This document shows, piece by piece, positions 6,338 to 47,707 of a stretch of DNA of 64,000 nucleotides. The translations under genes and the position numbers were made by a program. Each line of letters begins with the position of its first letter. Position 1 is the stretch's first letter. Source of the stretch: a virus; the IMG/VR virus record IMGVR_UViG_3300007640_000030, positions 1-64,000 of that record. The stretch is one strand, 5' to 3'. Under the pieces are notes generated by a model that made no database searches, was not told where the DNA came from, and saw nothing but the letters and a program-made list of their open reading frames with translations.

Positions 6338-6574
6338 TCAGTACAAGGACATGAGGGTTGAGATCGCCAAAATCAGTCGGTTTCTCCAGATCATGGAGTT
6401 GGACTGTTCTGCAATCTCCTGAGTGGTCTTGATGTCTTCGAGGATCTCAAAGAACTCTTCCTTGGTCAGGTTACCCGACTCGTACTCGACTTGGGTGGAC
6501 TGGACTAACAGGGCCAGTCTAGACATGTCTTGGTCTTCTGCTTGCCGTTTAATTTCTTGTAGTTCTGGACTCAT
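6338..6574 (-). CDS. Hypothetical protein with C-terminal hydrophobic segment, 78 aa
   Basis: A charged helical N-terminal part (residues 1-60) is followed by a short hydrophobic tail, WRNRLILAISTLMSL, which could anchor in a membrane. No recognised family. Its ATG overlaps the stop of the upstream lipoprotein gene by 4 nt (ATGA). It is the last gene of the membrane/secreted cluster that runs down from 10748. Confidence 0.55.
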   Translation of the reverse strand: MSPELQEIKRQAEDQDMSRLALLVQSTQVEYESGNLTKEEFFEILEDIKTTQEIAEQSNSMIWRNRLILAISTLMSLY

Positions 6575-6945
6575 TTGTTTCTCCGTAGGATCGCCGTTCC
6601 AACGTCACGACTCTGTTCCTGCAATAAAGTTTTCTTCAGTCCACAATATGTAGGTGACATCGATTCTCGCGCCGCGAGGGGTTCCGTTGTGGTTTTCATA
6701 AGTAGTAGAAGGTTATTAACATCACGGGATCCTTTGAGTTCGGAGTACGCAATCAACCAGTCAACGTTATCATCGATAATCGCCGCTTGTTCTATTGCGA
6801 GACCTTCGTCACTACATTCTAGATTATTGATGTTGTGATAGAGTTCTACCGCTTGATACGACTCATTATCGTCGTAGAGTGATGCACAACCGCTGAGTAT
6901 ACTCATCCCCAGCAAGCTAGCTAAGATTATAACACGATTTTTCAT
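6571..6945 (-). CDS. Putative lipoprotein, about 124 aa
   Basis: From ATG 6945 the protein begins MKNRVIILASLLGMSILSGCAS: a basic n-region, a hydrophobic stretch and an LSGC lipobox with Cys near residue 20. This predicts lipidation by Lgt and cleavage by signal peptidase II. The mature part is about 105 residues, mainly helical, with two more cysteines (NLECSDEG and SPTYCGLKK) that could form a disulfide. A TTG three codons upstream is the alternative start. Family unknown. It is co-linear with secreted genes upstream. Oddly, a perfect sigma70 promoter overlaps its start. Confidence 0.65.
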   Translation of the reverse strand: MKNRVIILASLLGMSILSGCASLYDDNESYQAVELYHNINNLECSDEGLAIEQAAIIDDNVDWLIAYSELKGSRDVNNLLLLMKTTTEPLAARESMSPTYCGLKKTLLQEQSRDVGTAILRRNK

Positions 6946-6954
6946 TTTTGTCAA
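6926..6954 (-). promoter_or_regulatory. Perfect sigma70 promoter overlapping a start codon
   Basis: TTGACA (6954-6949), 17 nt, TATAAT (6931-6926), both perfect. The predicted transcription start (about 6919) is inside the lipoprotein gene, downstream of its ATG. The transcript could use an inner ATG at 6906 or serve the 78-aa gene. Confidence 0.6.
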
Positions 6955-6957
6955 GAC

Positions 6958-7437
6958 CTAATTTGATAAAGGATTATCTAAAAACGCCTGTATTTTTGCG
7001 TCGAGTCTTTCCTCTACCTGTTGAAGTTTACGATCAGTATCCACAACGAGTGCATCTCGTTTGGTATCAAATCGTTCGTCAGCCCTATCTATCATATCTT
7101 CAACTACGGTTTCTAGAGTTCTCCCTTGATCCTCCACACGGTCAACGTTGCGTTCCATGCGATTGAAATCGTCTCGTAAGTCGTTCTTGATAGTTCTGGA
7201 ATAGTCTACTGCGGCGTCAACTTGAATCAACGCATCGTCTAACTTCTGTTCGATTAGTCTATTGCGGTTCTCAATCTCTGTGGTATCGATGTTCGCAATG
7301 ATCTCTTTCATATCCATGTAGTCTTTATAGAACTCAAATGCACCCCAAGATGCACCACCCAAGGTTGACAGGGCGGTGAGGATAACCATTATCCTACCAC
7401 CTCTGAAGGTCATTCCCGCGAATTCAAATTCTGCCAT
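6958..7437 (-). CDS. Membrane-anchored coiled-coil protein, 159 aa
   Basis: One N-terminal membrane segment (about residues 17-37, VILTALSTLGGASWGAF) is followed by about 110 residues of heptad-like charged helix (MDMKEIIANID onward), predicted coiled coil. No signal cleavage site is obvious, so it is probably a single-span anchor with a long coiled coil. The shape resembles inner-membrane spanins, but nothing specific identifies it. The gap to the upstream gene is 9 nt, consistent with one operon. Confidence 0.6.
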   Translation of the reverse strand: MAEFEFAGMTFRGGRIMVILTALSTLGGASWGAFEFYKDYMDMKEIIANIDTTEIENRNRLIEQKLDDALIQVDAAVDYSRTIKNDLRDDFNRMERNVDRVEDQGRTLETVVEDMIDRADERFDTKRDALVVDTDRKLQQVEERLDAKIQAFLDNPLSN

Positions 7438-7446
7438 CTGTTATCC

Positions 7447-7914
7447 TTAACTTACGATTACTGTGATGAGTCCTGTGATCACAAATATACTTATTCCTAT
7501 ACCAAAAACAAGCGCCGCAACATCAATCCAGAACGCCTTGGCCTGCGCCTTCCTACGCATTTCGTTCTGACGATACCTTCGTATCCTTTTGCGTTCTTCC
7601 ATCATGTCTTCGTAGAAGGCGCCTTGTCCGGAATAGATCAGGTACTCTCTGAGTTCTTTTTCCATCCATGCAATCTTGTGTTTCGCGGCGGTGATCTCCA
7701 ACGCCTGCGCCTCTACACTGTTACCACTAAAAAGTTTCTGAACTCCTGCGGTAGATTGGTTCTTGATGTTTGCTTCACTCACTGCGTCCATAGAATCGAA
7801 AAACTTTCCGAACGCGCCAATCATATCTTGGGCTTCCCTACCCTTTTCCACTGCTCCCTTAATTGCATTATATGCGGCACCAGCGACTTGCACCGCGACA
7901 GCTAGTTCTACCAT
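7447..7914 (-). CDS. Tail-anchored protein with Ala-rich N-terminus, 155 aa
   Basis: The N-terminus is a moderately hydrophobic Ala/Val helix (MVELAVAVQVAGAAYNAIKG). It is followed by a soluble helical region, a strongly basic RKRIRRYRQNEMRRK stretch near residues 107-121, and a C-terminal membrane segment (about 129-154, VAALVFGIGISIFVITGLITVIV). Basic residues before the anchor suggest the bulk stays in the cytoplasm. I recall similar proteins from marine phages but no function. A late-type box (AATAAATA) lies 35 nt upstream. Confidence 0.6.
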   Translation of the reverse strand: MVELAVAVQVAGAAYNAIKGAVEKGREAQDMIGAFGKFFDSMDAVSEANIKNQSTAGVQKLFSGNSVEAQALEITAAKHKIAWMEKELREYLIYSGQGAFYEDMMEERKRIRRYRQNEMRRKAQAKAFWIDVAALVFGIGISIFVITGLITVIVS

Positions 7915-7948
7915 ATTATTATTCTCTTTTTGGTAGTTAGTTTAACTG

Positions 7949-7956
7949 TATTTATT
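7949..7956 (-). promoter_or_regulatory. Late-type promoter box (AATAAATA)
   Basis: Minus-strand AATAAATA followed by CAG, 35 nt before ATG 7914; one mismatch from the T4 late octamer TATAAATA. It would start late transcription of 7447..7914 and the genes below. Confidence 0.5.
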
Positions 7957-8452
7957 ATTCTTCGAATTGCAAGTTGCGTAAGTTTTGTAGTTCCTGTTGT
8001 AGTCTTAAGACCTCTAGTCGTTTCTTCTCCAACTCTAGTTTATATAACAAGTTACAGTTGGGTCTCTCTTTTGGTGCACCGATAGGAATATTGATCCGTG
8101 CGTAAACACCCACGTCTCGTGTGAACGCTTGATTTCCAAATCTCGTGGGTGGACCTATGTCCGTACCATAGTAAGTTCCGTAGTAAGGGTCATCCTGATT
8201 GAGGATACCCACCACACCAAACTCTAGATTTGTTGCAGAACCAATCGCGGCAGAACACTCGAAGTCTCCTGCACGTACACGGTCCTGTTGAAAACTTTGG
8301 GGAGAGTTGGGCATATTAAGATTGAGAGAACTCGCGCTGTTACTAGTGGGCGCTCTCTCAATTATTGTTGTAGTGGTTGTTGCGGGTATAGAATCCTGCG
8401 CTGCGGTCTCAGCAGAAAACAATAACGCTACAATAACGAGTAATTTTTTCAT
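7955..8452 (-). CDS. Secreted protein of the membrane/fimbria-like cassette, 165 aa
   Basis: From ATG 8452 the protein starts MKKLLVIVALLFSAETAAQD, a clear Sec signal peptide with probable cleavage after ETAA. A Ser/Thr/Asn-rich linker follows (about 22-55), then a core with FECSAAIGSATNLEFGVVG (about 64-82) and GVYARINIPIGAP. The end is a charged helix (LEKKRLEVLRLQQEL), likely coiled coil. The Cys-x-x-x-x-G core and the later NCNLLYKLE motif are echoed in 10173..10748, suggesting related modules. The start overlaps the upstream stop (ATGA). Function unknown; the location points to the periplasm or surface. Confidence 0.65.
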   Translation of the reverse strand: MKKLLVIVALLFSAETAAQDSIPATTTTTIIERAPTSNSASSLNLNMPNSPQSFQQDRVRAGDFECSAAIGSATNLEFGVVGILNQDDPYYGTYYGTDIGPPTRFGNQAFTRDVGVYARINIPIGAPKERPNCNLLYKLELEKKRLEVLRLQQELQNLRNLQFEE

Positions 8453-8826
8453 TTCAATCTCGAACATATCCTAGAAGACACGGACGTTCCGGTAGTCCTT
8501 TGTCTGACAATTTTAGTTTTTGTACATATGTAATCTGCAATACCAACATCTTGTTGTCGGATATACACCATTACTTCTCTTCTCTCTAAGTAAGGAACCC
8601 TAATTATCTTTTCGCTCGTGGCGAATTTCACGGGGTTCCACTCAGAGTCGTAAACACTAATCTCGAAGAACTCAACATCACTTCTTCGATTGATCAGTAA
8701 CATCTCAGTCTGCATCACATTCTCAACAAAACTTCTTTCGAGTTTTGGATATGTTGGTGTCCAAGAGTGGGCCATCGCTGACCCACTCAAGAACAATCCT
8801 GTCAATAACATAATAAAACGTATCAT
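8449..8826 (-). CDS. Periplasmic protein resembling a pilus-assembly chaperone domain
   Basis: A signal peptide (MIRFIMLLTGLFLSGSAMAH, cleavage after AMA) precedes about 105 residues. Hydrophobic strands alternate in an order like the N-terminal Ig-like domain of fimbrial chaperones: EMLLINRRSDVEFFEISVYD, then EWNPVKFAT, then IIRVPYLERREVMVYI. The mature part has two Cys (ADYICTKTK and SRICSR). It is only about half the length of a classic two-domain chaperone, so it may be a one-domain version. It lies directly downstream of a fimbrial-subunit-like gene with no gap. The chaperone role is inferred from strand pattern and context only. Confidence 0.5.
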   Translation of the reverse strand: MIRFIMLLTGLFLSGSAMAHSWTPTYPKLERSFVENVMQTEMLLINRRSDVEFFEISVYDSEWNPVKFATSEKIIRVPYLERREVMVYIRQQDVGIADYICTKTKIVRQRTTGTSVSSRICSRLK

Positions 8827-9330
8827 TTAGATTGCGATACACTCCGCCTGTACTGTCGCACGATAGATACCAGCGGGTAATGCCTTGTCAAATCCATAGT
8901 CGGCTTCTGAAGATACTTTGAACCAAGTACTTCCTGCAACCGTTAGATCGATTTCTGTTACGTTGTTGTAGAGTCTCTTCTCAGTGTCGTATGCCGCCAT
9001 CGCGGGATCCGAAACTTCACTGACCGAAACTGTTCCACTCCAAGTCACAACATCGTCCAAAGCAGGACTCTCAACGAATTGGTCTGGAGTTGTTATTGTC
9101 GCCTTGTAATAATCAGCCTGAATAACATCGTAGCGAACGATGGGTTCAACACCCCCGTCAACTGCGTCAGTACTGAGTGTACTTGGTGTCGGGTTTCCAA
9201 AGACACCTAGAGTGTCTGTTGTCACCACACACTTAGAATCTACAGTACCCGTGATATCGACATTAGTTGCATTCGCACTTGTTGCGAGAACAAGAGACAA
9301 CGCCGTTAATGGTAGTACTTTCTTTAACAT
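8827..9330 (-). CDS. Secreted beta-rich protein resembling a fimbrial / spore-coat-U-type subunit
   Basis: A strong signal peptide (MLKKVLPLTALSLVLATSANA) is followed by a mature domain of about 146 residues. It begins VDITGTVDSKCVVTTDTLG and ends PAGIYRATVQAECIA. An early GTVxxxC, a later Cys that could form a disulfide, alternating Thr/Val strands and a closing PAGxYxxTV strand are typical of type-1-like and spore-coat-U-like pilin subunits. The adjacent downstream gene has a chaperone-like pattern. No usher is visible in the window, so it may use host machinery or act alone. Family membership is inferred by eye. Confidence 0.55.
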   Translation of the reverse strand: MLKKVLPLTALSLVLATSANATNVDITGTVDSKCVVTTDTLGVFGNPTPSTLSTDAVDGGVEPIVRYDVIQADYYKATITTPDQFVESPALDDVVTWSGTVSVSEVSDPAMAAYDTEKRLYNNVTEIDLTVAGSTWFKVSSEADYGFDKALPAGIYRATVQAECIAI

Positions 9331-9343
9331 TTAATGTTCCTTT

Positions 9344-10240
9344 TTATGGTTGTTCATACTGTAGATTGACCATCTCTTGATGTAGTTGGTCTTGGGCAAA
9401 GTTTACACGATACCCGTTAGTATTGTCAGGTAAATTCGCATCCTGTAGAGTTATGGTCTCCTCGTATTTAGTGTCGGGGAGTGTATCATAATAAAAAGTT
9501 GGTACGAAGTTTAGTAAGAGTAGTTGGTTGTGTATCTGTTGGTCAGCGGACGCGATAAGTGACCTCTCAACAATACCTAACATCTCTTCGAGGGATTTCC
9601 TTCTCAGGTTTGGTTTTGATTCACCACCCTCCTCAATCTGTTCTCTATCTCTCTCTTCTTCCTCCTCATCTTTAGTTTCAGTTTCTTTTTCCAGTTCTTC
9701 TTGTACGAACTGATCGTCCATTGGATCATACGCTACAATTTCCGGTACGGTTGGAGTGGACGGAATATAATTCGGGCACTCCGGTCTATCAGTTACACCA
9801 AAACAAGGATCGTACTGATAGTTGTAGAGGACAGTAGGATCCGTTACTTTACCTTCACCTTCCACAACAATAGATCCGTCTCCCCACCTACTTCGAGGTA
9901 TGTTAGAGACAGGAACCAATCTCCTTATCGAACTGCCTGGCAATCCAGACCAATCGTCTGCGGATCGAAAAATGTATTGACCTTCGTTCTCCGCATCCTC
10001 GTTCTGCACGTAGACGATCATATCGTCTTCGGGGTTCTTTATGGTTGTGTATCTGTACACAACACCATTAACTGTAAGTCCTGTCTGTTGAGGCAGGACG
10101 TTGGTCATTACCCATGTAAGACCATCTTGCGCCGCATTTCCGGTTGTCCCGAAAACGGTTTGTGCATGTACGTTAGATGACCAGAAGCATGAGAAGAATA
10201 CTAAGGACACCACCAGCGCCCAGTAAGGTTTTCTTGTCAT
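9344..10240 (-). CDS. Large secreted protein of the cassette, 298 aa
   Basis: ATG 10240 gives MTRKPYWALVVSLVFFSCFW, continuing SSNVHA, a Sec signal peptide with cleavage after VHA. The mature part has a beta-rich region with VPVSNIPRSRWGDGS and YNYQYDPCFGV, both suggestive of a conserved extracellular domain. Then come a Pro-rich stretch (IPSTPTVPEI), a very acidic Glu-rich linker near residues 190-215 and a helical C-terminal part. An AAGGG ribosome site lies 7 nt upstream. The signal-peptide codons overlap the C-terminal membrane segment of the upstream gene in another frame for 68 nt. Function unknown. Confidence 0.65.
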   Translation of the reverse strand: MTRKPYWALVVSLVFFSCFWSSNVHAQTVFGTTGNAAQDGLTWVMTNVLPQQTGLTVNGVVYRYTTIKNPEDDMIVYVQNEDAENEGQYIFRSADDWSGLPGSSIRRLVPVSNIPRSRWGDGSIVVEGEGKVTDPTVLYNYQYDPCFGVTDRPECPNYIPSTPTVPEIVAYDPMDDQFVQEELEKETETKDEEEEERDREQIEEGGESKPNLRRKSLEEMLGIVERSLIASADQQIHNQLLLLNFVPTFYYDTLPDTKYEETITLQDANLPDNTNGYRVNFAQDQLHQEMVNLQYEQP

Positions 10241-10748
10241 TTGTAAACCCTTTGTCGTAGTCTTCTGCATTGGGTTGTTCCTCTTCGTTGATTTCCCACG
10301 CCGCCTTTGCCGCTGGACCTATTAGACCATCATATGGACACGGTGTTCCGGCGTGCATCATTGCATCAAAGACTCTTTCGTCTTGGCACATAACCGACAC
10401 GGCGGCCACTTTCATTCCCATATCATAGAGCGTCTTTGCATTCTTTAACCTCTCACAATTTTCATCCGTTACCTGAGTACCTGTAGAGACACCAAGAATC
10501 TGAGTTTGAATTGCACCCGCAACTCCAAAGGTACACAAGTCTGAGTTCGACGTGTTGATTGTCGGGGTGATCGCAGAGGCAGGGGGTGATCTGAGAATAG
10601 TAGTCGTTTTACCGTTGGTAGTAACGGTACTCTCAGTTATGATAGGTTCAACTGTTTGAGTCGGAGTTTCGTCAGCGTCCTGTGCATTGACTGCGACTCC
10701 AAAAATTAATGATGTAAGTAACACCACGCTGCTAATTACTAAGCGCAT
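10173..10748 (-). CDS. Secreted, C-terminally anchored protein of the cassette, 191 aa
   Basis: ATG 10748 follows an AAGGAA site and yields MRLVISSVVLLTSLIFGVAV ending in NAQ, a signal peptide. A Thr-rich linker (TNGKTTTIL) leads to a core with LCTFGVAGAIQTQILGVSTG, NCERLKNAKTLYDMGMKV, AAVSVMCQDERVFDAMM and AGTPCPYDG. Five Cys are present. The end is a hydrophobic helix (TLLGAGGVLSILLMLLVI), probably a membrane anchor. It is the first gene of the cassette and is preceded by a late-type box and a strong hairpin. I recall the core from marine phages but no function is known to me. Confidence 0.65.
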   Translation of the reverse strand: MRLVISSVVLLTSLIFGVAVNAQDADETPTQTVEPIITESTVTTNGKTTTILRSPPASAITPTINTSNSDLCTFGVAGAIQTQILGVSTGTQVTDENCERLKNAKTLYDMGMKVAAVSVMCQDERVFDAMMHAGTPCPYDGLIGPAAKAAWEINEEEQPNAEDYDKGFTNDKKTLLGAGGVLSILLMLLVI

Positions 10749-10772
10749 ACCATATTCCTTTTCCAATTAGTT

Positions 10773-10796
10773 GGGGTGTCATTTAATTGACACCCC
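10773..10796 (-). other. Perfect 9-bp hairpin in a 5' leader
   Basis: GGGGTGTCA (10773-10781) pairs with TGACACCCC (10788-10796) around a 6-nt AT-rich loop. It lies between the late-type box at 10810-10817 and the ribosome site of 10173..10748, so it is in the mRNA leader. There is no T-run, so it is not a standard terminator; it may stabilise the mRNA or bind a regulator. Confidence 0.6.
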
Positions 10797-10809
10797 CATA
10801 GTATGCCTG

Positions 10810-10817
10810 TATTTAGT
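10810..10817 (-). promoter_or_regulatory. Late-type promoter box (ACTAAATA)
   Basis: Minus-strand ACTAAATA followed by CAG, 62 nt before ATG 10748. The same octamer occurs upstream of the plus-strand orphan gene at 25576-25583. It differs from TATAAATA at the first two positions. It probably drives the secreted cassette late in infection. Confidence 0.45.
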
Positions 10818-10843
10818 CTTTTGAGATTTTTAAATTTGAACGA

Positions 10844-11611
10844 TTATTCCATTTGTTCGAAGATGTGATATAAAAGAGTCGAATACTCTGTATGTGCGTC
10901 TTCGTCTGGATGATTGTGTTCGTGGATCGTATAGTTCTCTTTGGCGAGAGTGTAGAGGTCTTTCCAATGTCCCATTCCAATCCTAGACTCTTTCTTTAGT
11001 CTACCCAGATGTTCATTACACTGTTTCTGCCAATTGCGAAAAATTTTATCTCGTCCATTTTCCTGAGTCATGTAGATCATCATATCATACATCATCTTAT
11101 GGAAAGCGCCTTGAATCAATTTAATACCAAGAGTATCACATGTGTTTTGTAGACTTAACATGAAAGTAAGGGTGTGTAGAATATCGGTTCTTGGTTCATG
11201 ACCCTTATGGATATACATGTACATCGCACCCCACTTACTCTCGTCAAGAATATCGATTCTCTCCGGAGAATATTGGGTCATGTCATCATATCGTTTTATG
11301 TTCAACCACTTTTCGTTGTGAACCTCTCTGGACTCAGCGACCTCATGTCGAGTAAACCCAGACCACATAACCACAATGTGAGTGGGCATGGTTCTCTTTC
11401 CCGCCTGTGCATCCGCAAGGTACACTGTGAGATCACGGAAAATCTTTTCGTTACCTCCGCCACAGGTTGCAAGATTTACTGGTGGTTCCTCAAAACCAAG
11501 ATGATTACTTAACTTACTTGCCCAGTTTCTAGGCCAGTGAGTAGGGGGGTCATCATTACAACCCTCCAACTCATCCCCATATGTAAAACTGCAACCATTG
11601 ACTAGTAACAT
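10844..11611 (-). CDS. SGNH/GDSL-type hydrolase-like protein, 255 aa
   Basis: The N-terminus MLLVNGCSFTYGDEL carries the block-I motif (GCSFT; Ser about residue 8 as nucleophile) of a phage-associated SGNH-like family (DUF6071-type). Further support is NLATCGGGNEKIFRD (about 47-61, Gly/Asn block) and a C-terminal HNHPDEDAHTEY (about 233-244), where an Asp-x-x-His pair could complete the triad. SGNH enzymes act as esterases or acyl-transferases. Here it neighbours an AMP-ligase-like protein and iron oxygenases, hinting at a shared modification pathway. The substrate is unknown. Confidence 0.7.
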   Translation of the reverse strand: MLLVNGCSFTYGDELEGCNDDPPTHWPRNWASKLSNHLGFEEPPVNLATCGGGNEKIFRDLTVYLADAQAGKRTMPTHIVVMWSGFTRHEVAESREVHNEKWLNIKRYDDMTQYSPERIDILDESKWGAMYMYIHKGHEPRTDILHTLTFMLSLQNTCDTLGIKLIQGAFHKMMYDMMIYMTQENGRDKIFRNWQKQCNEHLGRLKKESRIGMGHWKDLYTLAKENYTIHEHNHPDEDAHTEYSTLLYHIFEQME

Positions 11612-11614
11612 AAA

Positions 11615-12148
11615 TTATCCATTTTCTAGATCGTGAACATACAACGCCAGTAGTGCGTAGTGCAATACTTTCATTAGGTCTTTGCGGTGATCAGATACAT
11701 CACCCTTATTACCGTAGCGACTGTTGTATTTATCCACGTTACCTAGAAAGAAACCCATACCTCTTCCCCTGTCAATGATAACCTCACTTGACTGGATACC
11801 GGACTGACAATAGTGGGCGCTGTACGTACTATCGATGTACTCTTTAAATTCCTTGATCAACTCATCCTCACGGAACTTATAGTCCGGACGATGTTCAACG
11901 CTGCCATAGTCATCATCAGTAACAGTCAGGGTTACTGTAGTGGCGTCCCCATAGTCAAGTGTGTAGGGATTTCCGATACTAGTTGTAAAGTCTAGGGGCA
12001 CAGTATCAACAGTTATACCATCTACTTTAATAGTGTCCTCCTTCTTTCCAAACTTCTCTTCCCTATGTTTACGGGCCATCTCGTTCCACTCTTCTGGAGT
12101 GATGTCATCAATACTACCCCTACCACTTCTATCCTTCTTTTTCGACAT
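11615..12148 (-). CDS. DUF3310-like protein, 177 aa
   Basis: A basic and charged N-terminus (residues 1-45) is followed by a beta-prone middle rich in Thr/Asp. The C-terminal domain has GMGFFLGNVDKYNSRYGNKG and DLMKVLHYALLAL, which match the DUF3310 signature (FxxGNxxKYxxRxxxK, then DLxKxxxY) common in phage nucleotide-metabolism regions. DUF3310 has no proven function. The gene overlaps the end of the upstream AMP-ligase-like gene by 20 nt, and a perfect internal promoter (12537-12565) can transcribe it. Confidence 0.7.
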   Translation of the reverse strand: MSKKKDRSGRGSIDDITPEEWNEMARKHREEKFGKKEDTIKVDGITVDTVPLDFTTSIGNPYTLDYGDATTVTLTVTDDDYGSVEHRPDYKFREDELIKEFKEYIDSTYSAHYCQSGIQSSEVIIDRGRGMGFFLGNVDKYNSRYGNKGDVSDHRKDLMKVLHYALLALYVHDLENG

Positions 12149-13583
12149 CTCTATACCTCAATCTATCAGTTTCATAATCATCGAAACCATACTCCAGTTG
12201 ACTCTTCAGGTTGTGCCAGTATCGACATCTTAGATTGTCGAGACAAAACGCTTCCCTAGACTGGTGTACGATATCCTTAAAATACCGAAGGTCAGAGAGT
12301 TTCTCGTTCTCTTCGGCGGTAAAGTCTTCGTATACAACCAAGTAGTTTCTACCGTACTTGGATAGTATGTCGAAGTTCTCATGACCCAGAATCTCCTTCA
12401 CTGGTCTTGAGTACGGGTTCTTGAACACTCTATGTAACCGAATGTACTCACCCGCCTCGTTCTTGTCATAAAAATGAGAAAGTTGCACGAATTCTCTACA
12501 CGGTTTTGCACGAACCAGTGCGACCTTTTCCCTTTCATTATACAAAATATTATAGAAGTTGTCAAGGGGTTTTCCTACGTTACCCTCTTCGAACGGTGTC
12601 TTTTTGTCAACCACCTTGCAGAACAGATTAAACGCCTGCGCCCTCTTTTCTCCACTTAGGATCGCAACTCTTAGATCCCACTTCTTTATAATACGGTGTA
12701 GGTTCTCCGTGAACTCACCATAGGGGTAAATGAATGTCACATCTCTCCTAGATTTTTTAGACATACGAGCGACCATGTTTTCAAGGGTCTCCTCGTTCTT
12801 GATCATGACTTGTTTCTTACCCTCTTCCTCCATGACAGACACAACAAAGTTTGTGAACACGGGGTTCCACATGGACAACCTGTCCCAGAAATTCATTAAC
12901 AGATGTTCCGTACAGTAGATGTAAGCCGGTAGGAAATACGTCATGAAAGATTCTGCGTGAATGAAATTGAAGGTGTGGATTGCACGAGTGTCTTTTAGAT
13001 TAAATATTGCACCGTTACGTGCAGAGAGTGCGGCGACCTCTTTATGTGTGTAGTACCTGAAATTGAAACTGTCATCTTCCAGTCCGTCATCATACGAGAT
13101 GTATAGAAGATCATGGGGTCCGGATAAGATGCCAGGCACCTGACCTCCTTCATAAGAGTCTAGGTCAACATCATCGATGTTAATCAGACACCCAGTGTTA
13201 CCGTAACTCTCCATTTCATGTACAAGGTAGTCAGGTATGATACCCTCACACATGCGAGAAGCCTCTTCATCTATCACAAGTAGTTCAGGTTTGAGAAGAG
13301 GGATTGCACCATCAACTAGGATGTCTCTGTTCCAAGGCAGGTGGCCCGGAAACATAACAACACCCAGTTCTGCAAGTGCAAAAACAAAGGCGTGAAAATT
13401 TGTTTTGTTGGTGACACAACCAATCGCACATATGTCACCCTTCTGGATACCCACCTCGTTATGGAGATAGCACTTCCACTTATCAATTAGTTCGACAAAC
13501 TCTTCTTTGTTGTGTTCACTAGCACGTCCCCTATGGACGTTTCTAACCAGAAGTTGTTCTCGAAGTAAACTCCGATTAATCAC
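12129..13583 (-). CDS. ANL-superfamily (AMP-binding / acyl-CoA synthetase)-like protein, 484 aa
   Basis: The length and order of segments match adenylate-forming enzymes: an N-terminal helix and GIQKGDICAIGCVTNKTNFH (like the GDRV core), FALAELGVVMFPGHL, PELLVIDEEA, LLYISYDDGLEDD, then YYTHKEVAALS and AIHTFNFIHAESFMTYFLPA. The usual Gly/Ser/Thr-rich P-loop (SGTTGxPK) is replaced by acidic DDGLEDDSF, so classic ATP binding may be lost. The Lys-containing C-terminal domain is also divergent. The start is GTG 13583, 7 nt after GAGGAG and overlapping the upstream stop. It may be a pseudo-enzyme or a specialised ligase acting with the adjacent SGNH protein and oxygenase. Confidence 0.6.
   Translation of the reverse strand: MINRSLLREQLLVRNVHRGRASEHNKEEFVELIDKWKCYLHNEVGIQKGDICAIGCVTNKTNFHAFVFALAELGVVMFPGHLPWNRDILVDGAIPLLKPELLVIDEEASRMCEGIIPDYLVHEMESYGNTGCLINIDDVDLDSYEGGQVPGILSGPHDLLYISYDDGLEDDSFNFRYYTHKEVAALSARNGAIFNLKDTRAIHTFNFIHAESFMTYFLPAYIYCTEHLLMNFWDRLSMWNPVFTNFVVSVMEEEGKKQVMIKNEETLENMVARMSKKSRRDVTFIYPYGEFTENLHRIIKKWDLRVAILSGEKRAQAFNLFCKVVDKKTPFEEGNVGKPLDNFYNILYNEREKVALVRAKPCREFVQLSHFYDKNEAGEYIRLHRVFKNPYSRPVKEILGHENFDILSKYGRNYLVVYEDFTAEENEKLSDLRYFKDIVHQSREAFCLDNLRCRYWHNLKSQLEYGFDDYETDRLRYRDVEKEG
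12537..12565 (-). promoter_or_regulatory. Perfect sigma70 promoter inside the AMP-ligase-like gene
   Basis: TTGACA (12565-12560), 17 nt, TATAAT (12542-12537), 12/12 matches. It lies in coding sequence and would transcribe the DUF3310-like and SGNH genes. Confidence 0.6.
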
Positions 13584-32835: not shown

Positions 32836-32864
32836 ACTATAACCTACTCCGCAAGAAAAGTCAA
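32836..32864 (-). promoter_or_regulatory. Early sigma70-type promoter
   Basis: TTGACT (32864-32859), 17 nt, TATAGT (32841-32836), overlapping the 3' end of kdsA. It would drive the 55-aa gene, 32143..32634 and perhaps the endolysin. Confidence 0.6.
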
Positions 32865-33626
32865 GCGTTTTTTTGAAATTTTTTCAAGAGAACAGACAAG
32901 TTGTTTAAAATCAGATAGATGGAGAGAGTTGGGTCCATCAGATTTTGCGTTATCGGGGTCCGGATGTACCTCAAAAAAGAAGTTCTGGACCCCCATTGCG
33001 GCGGCCGCGCAGGCGAGAGGGGTGATGGCGGACCTATCCGAAGTCTCCACCTTTGCGGGGTTTTGGATAGAGTGAGTCACGTCAAACACCACATCGGGGT
33101 AGTTATTGATCATGTAGTTGAGACCCACGAAGTCCACCACCAATCTGTTGTAACCAAAAGAAGTTCCCCGTTCTGTCAACCAAACTTCCCTTGCACCGGA
33201 CGCCTTGTCCAAGACATCTTGACAATCATAGGGAGACATGAACTGACCCTTCTTGATATTAACGATCTTACCACTGAGAGATGCGGCTTTGATCAAATCC
33301 GTCTGTCTTGATAAGAGGGCAGGGATCTGTAGGACATCCACACATTCATCATGTTCTGACGCGATGTTATAGACTTGATGAGTCTCATGTACATCGGTTA
33401 GTGTCTTCAACTCAGGAATTTCTGCCTTCAATCTCCAGAAATGATCCATACATTGTTTCAGTCCTACACCCCTTGCACTCGTCCCTTTACTACGGTTCGC
33501 TTTGTCAAAGGACGCCTTGAAGTAGTACTCAATACCATATTCGTCACAGATACCTTTGCAGTGTTCTGCAACTTCACGTGCCATATCGAACGACTCGAAC
33601 TGGCATGGGCCTGCAATAATTCTCAT
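32844..33626 (-). CDS. kdsA: 3-deoxy-D-manno-octulosonate 8-phosphate synthase KdsA
   Basis: KdsA condenses arabinose-5-phosphate with phosphoenolpyruvate, the first committed step to KDO of lipopolysaccharide. MRIIAGPCQFES is the conserved start, YYFKASFDKANRSKG (about residues 34-48) is the family signature (KxSFDKANR), TDVHE and QIPALLSRQTDL line the active site, and FDVTHSIQNP (about 180-189) contains conserved ligands. 260 residues is slightly short of about 280 in bacteria. It overlaps kdsB by 4 nt. Confidence 0.93.
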   Translation of the reverse strand: MRIIAGPCQFESFDMAREVAEHCKGICDEYGIEYYFKASFDKANRSKGTSARGVGLKQCMDHFWRLKAEIPELKTLTDVHETHQVYNIASEHDECVDVLQIPALLSRQTDLIKAASLSGKIVNIKKGQFMSPYDCQDVLDKASGAREVWLTERGTSFGYNRLVVDFVGLNYMINNYPDVVFDVTHSIQNPAKVETSDRSAITPLACAAAAMGVQNFFFEVHPDPDNAKSDGPNSLHLSDFKQLVCSLEKISKKRLTFLAE

Positions 33627-34312
33627 ACCAACTTATTCCTCATATGCCAAGAATGTACGTCACCCACTGTGTTAATCTCCATACCATCAAACTGAGTTTC
33701 GTATACACCAATCTCAACTTCATTTTCAATCCATCGAAGTTGTTCCAAACTCTCAATTTCTTCATACAGACTAACATCCCAGTTTCCATACTCTCTTAAG
33801 GTTGGTTGAGAGTATCCATATACACCAAGGTGACGTACACCGTAAGTTATGTCACGAGCGAACCAGTGTGCGAGTTCTTGGTTATGTACCATCTTCACAT
33901 TGTTACGGTTCGACTGTTCCTCTTCTGTCATCTTGGTGTAAAGAGTACAGACATCCCACTCATCGTTACGAAGACCATGCGCCAGAGTCTCAATCATGTT
34001 AGTGGTAACATCAGGCATGTCTCCTTGGACATTGATGATGTACTTGTAGGGTTCCAACATAGGAAAGTATGAAGCGGAGGCACATCTTTCCGTACCGTTA
34101 CAATAGTGTTGACTATCAATTACAACCTCAAAACCCTTTACACAATCCGCGACTCTTTTACTGTCTGTCAATACCACAACCGGATATCCAGACTTTTCGC
34201 AAGCCTCCGCAACACGTCTTACCAGAGGTACACCCCCCAATTTGGTAAGTGGTTTATGGATGAGTCTTTTACTCCCCAGCCTTGCAGGAATAAAGATCAC
34301 CGTGTCCATCAT
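33623..34312 (-). CDS. kdsB: CMP-KDO synthetase KdsB
   Basis: KdsB activates KDO as CMP-KDO. The nucleotide-binding N-terminus IPARLGSKRLIHKPLTKLGG (about residues 8-27) and IINVQGDMPDVTTNMI (about 91-106) are hallmark motifs; the usual second acidic residue of QGDEP is Met here (QGDMP), a small deviation. 229 residues is a little short. It is first in a two-gene unit with kdsA, directly below tRNA-Arg. The pair implies that infected cells keep or redirect KDO supply. Confidence 0.9.
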   Translation of the reverse strand: MMDTVIFIPARLGSKRLIHKPLTKLGGVPLVRRVAEACEKSGYPVVVLTDSKRVADCVKGFEVVIDSQHYCNGTERCASASYFPMLEPYKYIINVQGDMPDVTTNMIETLAHGLRNDEWDVCTLYTKMTEEEQSNRNNVKMVHNQELAHWFARDITYGVRHLGVYGYSQPTLREYGNWDVSLYEEIESLEQLRWIENEVEIGVYETQFDGMEINTVGDVHSWHMRNKLV

Positions 34313-47332: not shown

Positions 47333-47707
47333 TTACTCATTCCAACGATCATCGTCTTCGTCATAGTCACCATCATTATCGGTGTCACAGAAACGTTGCC
47401 ACGCAATCATATCAAAAGTTAGACCTTCATGCCACGGTACATATGCTTTGCACCATTCATGAGAACCCACTACCATATCATCGGTTCCGTCTGGATCGGG
47501 AACATAATCTCTCTTGGTATGTTCTTTCTGAAGTGTAAAATACACATTACCGTTATTGTAGTTTTTCTGTGTGAACAACTTACGTTTGGCGATGTAAATT
47601 TTCTCGCCTTCGGATAGAGTGTATGTCGATCCATCATCATAATTGATTACCGTTTCAGAATGGGCAGAAAACGGAATCAACACTAGCGCTAGTATTAACC
47701 ATTTCAT
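47333..47707 (-). CDS. Secreted protein with Asp-rich calcium-binding-like end, 124 aa
   Basis: A signal peptide (MKWLILALVLIPFSAHS) precedes a small mature protein. The middle is beta-prone with aromatic residues (YNNGNVYFTLQKEHTKRDY) and two Cys (HEWCKAY, QRFCDTD). The end, DTDNDGDYDEDDDRW, matches the D-x-D-x-D-G-x-x-D calcium loop seen in thrombospondin-3 or dockerin repeats. It follows gene 23 after a terminator and has no clear promoter in the 138-nt gap. Function unknown. Confidence 0.6.
   Translation of the reverse strand: MKWLILALVLIPFSAHSETVINYDDGSTYTLSEGEKIYIAKRKLFTQKNYNNGNVYFTLQKEHTKRDYVPDPDGTDDMVVGSHEWCKAYVPWHEGLTFDMIAWQRFCDTDNDGDYDEDDDRWNE

Follow-up and report, generated by a model that had tools for sequence, protein, structure and literature searches.

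The late proteins that T4-type phages export by the Sec pathway include spanins and the antiholin RI. T4 RI is reported to be an antiholin that is secreted and whose signal peptide is cleavable (PMC8385771). Pelagimyophages and pelagipodophages, such as HTVC008M and Melnitz, encode curli (type VIII secretion) operons (PMC7029224, PMC9599517, PMC9004378). The system considered here is a cassette within a row of nine tightly packed minus-strand open reading frames (ORFs), g9 to g1, at positions 6338-10748 of the window, the 64,000-nucleotide stretch analysed from the IMG/VR virus record IMGVR_UViG_3300007640_000030. The gene content identifies the phage as a T4-like myovirus: the ORF listings of the 115-kb record include tail, portal, capsid, terminase, clamp, UvsX, UvsW, and gp55-like late sigma factor genes.

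Like the phage curli operons, the cassette is a block of exported envelope proteins that has probably passed between phage families, and for the operon of Melnitz a role in lysis timing has been proposed. It differs in that CsgG (PF03783) was not found in the 115-kb record, which may be a fragment, by a search that detected its positive controls, and that no curli-type repeats were noticed. Among named phages, those with CsgG (HTVC008M, the Melnitz strains, and Brevundimonas phages) and those with g9 form disjoint sets, albeit in a small sample. With the two-component spanins (Rz/Rz1) the cassette shares overlapping genes for envelope proteins, the i-spanin topology of g3, and, in some relatives, lipoproteins nearby. 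It differs from them in that it encodes between three and six exported proteins, has no lipoprotein as an obligatory part, and matches no spanin family, and in two loci it exists in addition to a spanin pair.

What can be said most safely is that the cassette encodes an envelope-directed module that is late, exported, and disulfide-containing and that has a conserved core. Because this core recurs in unrelated marine phages, at times beside genes that burst the cell, the module probably serves phage exit rather than the building of a pilus.

Gene Order and Conservation of the Cassette

All nine ORFs that the first-pass annotation placed in this region are present (Table 1). Its view of them as a single unit does not hold for nine genes but does for a core of six, g9-g8-g7-g6-g5-g3, to which g4 and the g2-g1 pair are accessory. 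A scan of IMG/VR with g7 gave 41 loci, and a scan with a g9 alignment gave at least 595 confirmed places, of which the best 80 were used; removal of duplicates left 93 distinct loci (locus numbers beginning with L are ours). The order g9-g8-g7-g6-g5 is found in 76/76 complete copies, and g3 comes next in all 71 copies that are not cut off at that point. The 17 partial cassettes all stop at contig ends, g7 and g6 are adjacent in every case, and no counterexample to the gene order was seen among the 93 loci. Inheritance of the genes as a set is supported, and the combination of unrelated folds with genes carried singly, which had been named as the outcome that would speak against the proposal, was not found.

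The ratio of nonsynonymous to synonymous change (pN/pS) was estimated against four loci, with synonymous sites close to saturation in many of the comparisons; the core genes gave ~0.1-0.6 and the g2-g1 pair 0.5-0.7. With pN well below pS, the core products are, as judged from these comparisons, under purifying selection. The g9 and g8 genes overlap by at least 62 nt in 92/92 loci measured, with a constant relative frame, so that one DNA segment codes for both the C-terminal anchor of g9 and the signal peptide of g8.

Table 1. Features of the cassette and its surroundings
Feature	Position	Strand	Description
Analysed window	first 64 kb of 115,009-bp IMG/VR virus record
Six-gene cassette g9-g8-g7-g6-g5-g3	10748 down to 6958	minus	order kept across IMG/VR loci
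Late-promoter-like box CTAAATAC	10809..10816	minus	upstream of g9; off-consensus in this phage
g9	10173..10748	minus	first gene of cassette; predicted signal peptide, invariant four-cysteine domain (phrog_20531), C-terminal transmembrane (TM) segment
g9/g8 overlap	10173..10240	minus	68 nt; g8 signal peptide out of frame within coding region of g9 C-terminal TM segment
g8	9344..10240	minus	predicted signal peptide, N-terminal domain, acidic coiled linker, conserved C-terminal segment
g7	8827..9330	minus	predicted secreted, immunoglobulin (Ig)-like; C34/C164 invariant; GxVxSKC start; weak pilin resemblance
g6	8449..8826	minus	predicted secreted, single Ig-like domain; C101/C121 invariant; pilus-chaperone domains the nearest solved folds
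g5	7955..8452	minus	predicted secreted; two invariant cysteines; helix-prone C-terminal segment; phrog_37374, E 9e-6
Late-promoter-like box ATAAATA	7949..7955	minus	upstream of g4
g4	7447..7914	minus	accessory membrane protein, predicted C-terminal anchor; absent from most related cassettes
g3	6958..7437	minus	core member; predicted N-terminal TM segment and periplasmic coiled coil
g3 NPL motif	6967..6975	minus	C-terminal; protein ends DNPLSN
g2	6571..6945	minus	predicted lipoprotein; goes with g1, outside invariant core
g1	6338..6574	minus	small protein paired with g2; accessory

A Minimal Core in Three Phage Groups

The g9 product matches the function-unknown family PHROG 20531 (E 3.4e-16). 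Searches of Pfam and PHROGs for g1-g9, and of PDB sequence profiles for g5-g9, gave only this match and that of g5 in Table 1, also to a function-unknown family. Homologs of g9 occur in 11 named records of several unrelated types (six Pelagibacter, two Roseobacter, one uncultured marine, and two Manatee Spring phages) in addition to the IMG/VR places. In most named phages examined, the gene after g9 encodes an exported protein of the linker type, and the next one a small coiled-coil protein with an N-terminal TM segment. Three records label the linker protein as CBM-like or TonB-like. The g8 product is the positional counterpart of such linker proteins that come after g9 in pelagiphages and not a proven homolog; hidden Markov models did not show g8 and the linker proteins of other phages to be homologous. 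A match of g8 to Rad54_N (E 1e-4) falls below the Pfam cut-off, lies within the acidic coil, and was rejected.

Homologs of g3 are HTVC115P gp49 (E 2e-33), CRP-810 gp51 (1e-10), an ORF of ct7L0027 (6e-7), and, weakly, CRP-207 gp73 (7e-5). The two Roseobacter phage genes among them, CRP-207 gp73 (L137 3292-3873) and CRP-810 gp51 (L006 8297-8719), are labelled lysozyme. The coiled-coil proteins after g9 finish in NPL or NPM plus a few residues. This feature was examined in 214 distinct g9 loci from three phage groups, with a TM threshold that had been loosened after a stricter first run, in which fewer T4-like loci had the motif; the upstream control used the identical relaxed threshold. A protein with an N-terminal TM segment and an NPL/NPM ending lies downstream of g9 in 166 of the 168 untruncated loci (T4-like 68/69, pelagiphage-like 47/47, Roseobacter-like 51/52) and upstream in 0/214. 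As to the exceptions, the protein of L302 ends in KPL, and L069 was scored as missing with its g3 ORF at a contig end. The minimal core that recurs in the three groups consists of g9, one exported protein, and a coiled coil of the inner membrane that has NPL/NPM at its end. What other phages conserve is g9, the exported linker protein, and g3, not the pilin-like and chaperone-like pair.

Just upstream of g9 in Roseobacter-type phages lies a gene for a short lipobox protein that looks like a g9 domain in miniature; it is found ~80-130 nt before the g9 start in L255, L266, L270, L278, L289, and L296, and at 886-1101 in L138.

Export Signals and Conserved Cysteines

Export calls were made with a simple hydropathy and cleavage-site heuristic of our own, not with SignalP. 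Cleavable signals are predicted in g9, g8, g7, g6, and g5, a C-terminal TM segment in g9 and g4, an N-terminal membrane anchor in g3, and a lipobox, SILSGC with Cys20, in g2. These calls agree with the first-pass annotation for the signal peptides of g5-g8, the signal peptide plus anchor of g9, and the lipobox of g2; of three further genes said to have membrane segments, g3 and g4 do, and g1 has no convincing one. Across the 115-kb record 19 of 125 ORFs score as exported, seven of them in the cassette; among the rest, many appear to be false positives. Signal-peptide-like N termini recur in the orthologs (93/93 for g9, 91/92 for g8, 82/83 for g7, 69/69 for g6, and 74/74 for g5). Mature cysteines are even in number in every exported core protein and, in the alignments, invariant in g9, g7, g6, and g5. 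The export features are not due to chance, because the signal peptides recur, the even cysteines are invariant, and pN is well below pS. An envelope or periplasmic destination, as previously suggested, is supported by these predicted and recurring signals.

Late-type Promoter Boxes

Of two late-type boxes proposed earlier, that at 7949 is ATAAATA, whereas that at 10810 is off-consensus in this phage (CTAAATAC). Nevertheless, TAAATA occurs just upstream of g9 in 61/96 loci as compared with 12/96 on the opposite strand, often as TATAAATA. Boxes of the ATAAATA type number 17 on the gene-bearing strand versus 3 on the other, several of them ahead of structural genes. These boxes, which are of the T4 late type, point to late expression of the cassette. 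HTVC027P, an HTVC023P-type phage with a transcriptome (PMC12753301), is not among the g9 matches, so these data yield no timing for g9.

Proximity to Lysis Genes and Proposed Role

Several relatives carry lysis genes close to the cassette or to g9. In Mosig, a GTA_holin_3TM gene lies directly upstream of g9, and genes near g9 encode Phage_lysozyme in ctXG6705, Amidase_2 in HTVC033P, and Peptidase_M15 in HTVC023P. L087 and L095 carry an i-spanin-like ORF immediately upstream of the whole cassette, together with genes for a GH19-type endolysin and for a lipoprotein whose match to Rz-like spanin PHROGs is weak (E 7e-4). L110, L117, L118, L125, and L130 have a GH19-type gene on the downstream side of g3, and a Lipase_3 gene (L126) or a C93-like peptidase gene (L077) lies between g5 and g3. 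By their sequence features g3 and its NPL/NPM-ending relatives have the topology of an i-spanin, with an N-terminal TM segment and a periplasmic coiled coil.

The reading that we favor, tentatively and at slightly less than an even chance, is that the cassette encodes a late trans-envelope module that acts at the lysis stage besides the endolysin and spanins. The late-expressed, Sec-exported, disulfide-containing products would assemble into a complex within the infected cell's envelope. At its core would be the four-cysteine exported g9, the exported linker g8, which could span the periplasm, and the inner-membrane-anchored coiled coil g3 ending in NPL; this phage group would add three periplasmic proteins, the Ig-like g7, the chaperone-fold-like g6, and g5. 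Together with the endolysin and, where present, conventional spanins, the module may bridge and destabilize the envelope or set the timing of lysis.

Several observations weigh against this role. The recognized endolysin of this phage (31508..32131) is 21 kb from the cassette, an enrichment of endolysins near T4-like cassettes overall is not clear, and searches of Pfam and PHROGs gave no lysis family for any product of the cassette. L087 and L095 carry a spanin pair besides the cassette, which is therefore no plain substitute for spanins there. Searches for g7 in the whole genomes of 12 named phages and in genome contigs did not find it, so the link to lysis is one of context, for the most part the context of g9 and g3. 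The cassette sample was seeded on g7 and g9; because its loci were found through one or the other, it tells us that g7-g6-g5 accompany g9-g8 and g3 in the sampled set and does not demonstrate that g9 is always accompanied by g7.

Two simpler assignments were set aside. The identification of g3 simply as the missing i-spanin is weakened by the spanin pairs of L087 and L095, and no spanin PHROG was matched by g3, by g2, or by four g3 relatives. A universal o-spanin partner was rejected since lipobox ORFs lie near only some cassettes. The endolysin of this phage (minus strand) is of the SleB type (Hydrolase_2) and has an N-terminal membrane segment resembling that of signal-arrest-release endolysins.

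A bolder form of the proposal, which we consider rather doubtful, is that aquatic phages have a previously undescribed trans-envelope machine that is neither a holin, endolysin, spanin, or disruptin nor curli. Its core of g9, linker, and NPL coiled coil would be shared by unrelated marine phages, and one phage community would have added a pair with chaperone-like and pilin-like folds, with which the machine would exert a mechanical action on the host envelope as the phage exits. Open-access full text yielded no paper on the module, with subscription papers outside that scope, and this absence does not prove novelty.

Probable Transfer between Phage Families

Of 50 records, 5 have a T4-type gp23 and 7, with L119 among them, have a different terminase; the two sets do not overlap, and the cassette is common to both. 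On a tree of five concatenated cassette proteins the two sets interleave. Because marker sets that do not overlap share the cassette and interleave in this way, it is likely to have passed from one phage family to another as a block on several occasions, which has also been reported for phage curli operons (PMC9599517).

Such mobility, together with the export of the proteins to the envelope, would also suit superinfection exclusion or surface remodelling, in which the exported proteins mask or alter receptors and so block re-adsorption of progeny and rivals; the linker proteins after g9 in relatives have CBM-like N-terminal domains (by annotation or weak match). We regard this as unlikely, since the promoters are of late type whereas exclusion genes are usually early, lysis genes are close by in several lineages, and the core is conserved across phages of different hosts.

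Predicted Folds of g6 and g7

The first-pass annotation described g7 as resembling a pilin or a spore-coat-U-type subunit, g6 as having the strand order of the N-domain of a pilus chaperone, and the whole as a surface or periplasmic structure with fimbria-like parts. AlphaFold2 models were built from 23-sequence alignments. The g6 model (pLDDT 85, pTM 0.75) has FimC, SfaE, Caf1M, and FaeE as most of its top Foldseek matches in the PDB (E 1.5e-3 to 2e-2, probability 1.00, TM-score ~0.5), with other Ig-like domains, such as the MSP domain of VAP-A, also among the matches. At ~105 residues the mature protein is predicted to be one Ig-like domain, and the second chaperone domain is absent. The g7 model (pLDDT 82, pTM 0.71) is Ig-like, and PapG, CfaB, CsuA/B, and PapK are within its top 50, alongside many other sandwiches; no g7 match in the PDB has E<1e-3, and a search of BFVD gave a single, uncharacterized match below 1e-3.

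Profile-profile comparison with hhalign against eight chaperones and 18 pilins of E. coli K-12 rejected both as homologs. The probability for g6 with the chaperones is 0.75%; that for g7 with the pilins is 50%, no better than the 57% of the control, g5, and the g7 match is limited to the signal peptide and GxVxxxC. Neither protein has a Pfam match. In the absence of profile homology the idea of a pilin and a chaperone is a fold-level hint and not an assignment to these families. Bacterial relatives of g7 were not confirmed in genome contigs.

The reading that follows from the folds is a fimbria- or fiber-like structure displayed on the infected cell late, with chaperone-like g6 holding g7 subunits. 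It agrees with the export, co-inheritance, and late-type promoters of the cassette, with the nearest folds of g6, with the constant adjacency of the two genes, and with the Ig-like g7 model, its low-confidence N terminus, and its GxVxxxC start. In this start and in the Ig-like folds of both proteins the pair resembles chaperone-usher pili (FimC/PapD, FimA/CsuA/B). The pair differs from them in the single domain of g6, in the missing profile homology, the Foldseek E-values of g7 not being significant, and in the invariant C34 and C164 of g7, placed in its first and its last strand, whereas classical pilins have an A-B disulfide. Chaperone-usher pili also have an usher; that no usher or curli pore is present, as noted earlier for the window, now extends for CsgG to the 115-kb record, whereas for the usher no exported β-barrel of that size was noticed by eye in the ORF listings of this record, possibly a fragment, and no usher family search was made. 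As the widely conserved core also excludes g7 and g6, we consider a fiber improbable.

Least probable of all is a lysis-timing control of the RI kind, in which periplasmic disulfide proteins sense the envelope or a superinfecting phage and restrain the holin: the proteins are secreted, disulfide-rich, and late, as RI is secreted, and a holin-family gene adjoins g9 in Mosig, but six proteins are many for an antiholin and no holin gene was recognized adjoining the cassette in this genome.

Other Features

A signal-peptide protein without a PHROG match is also encoded at 47333..47707 of the window (minus), directly downstream of the major capsid gene. The adjacent ORFs 32844..33626 and 33623..34312 (minus) are, on reading, KdsA-like and KdsB-like, putatively for synthesis and activation of 3-deoxy-D-manno-octulosonate. 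In L052, two very large proteins with YTRTR/GNYxGDY-like repeats (6560..10066 and 10088..12682; record ~70560-76682) are possibly tail fibers.

Implications for Marine Phages

Pelagiphages and Roseobacter phages are abundant, and their way through the Gram-negative envelope is largely unannotated. The exported core is present in the cultured phages HTVC023P, HTVC033P, HTVC115P, HTVC202P, Mosig, CRP-207, and CRP-810, where its genes are tagged "hypothetical protein" or, wrongly, "lysozyme." From the enlarged version with six genes it appears that entire envelope cassettes move between phage families, and the strictly conserved exported core is a concrete, testable candidate for the breaching of the envelope.

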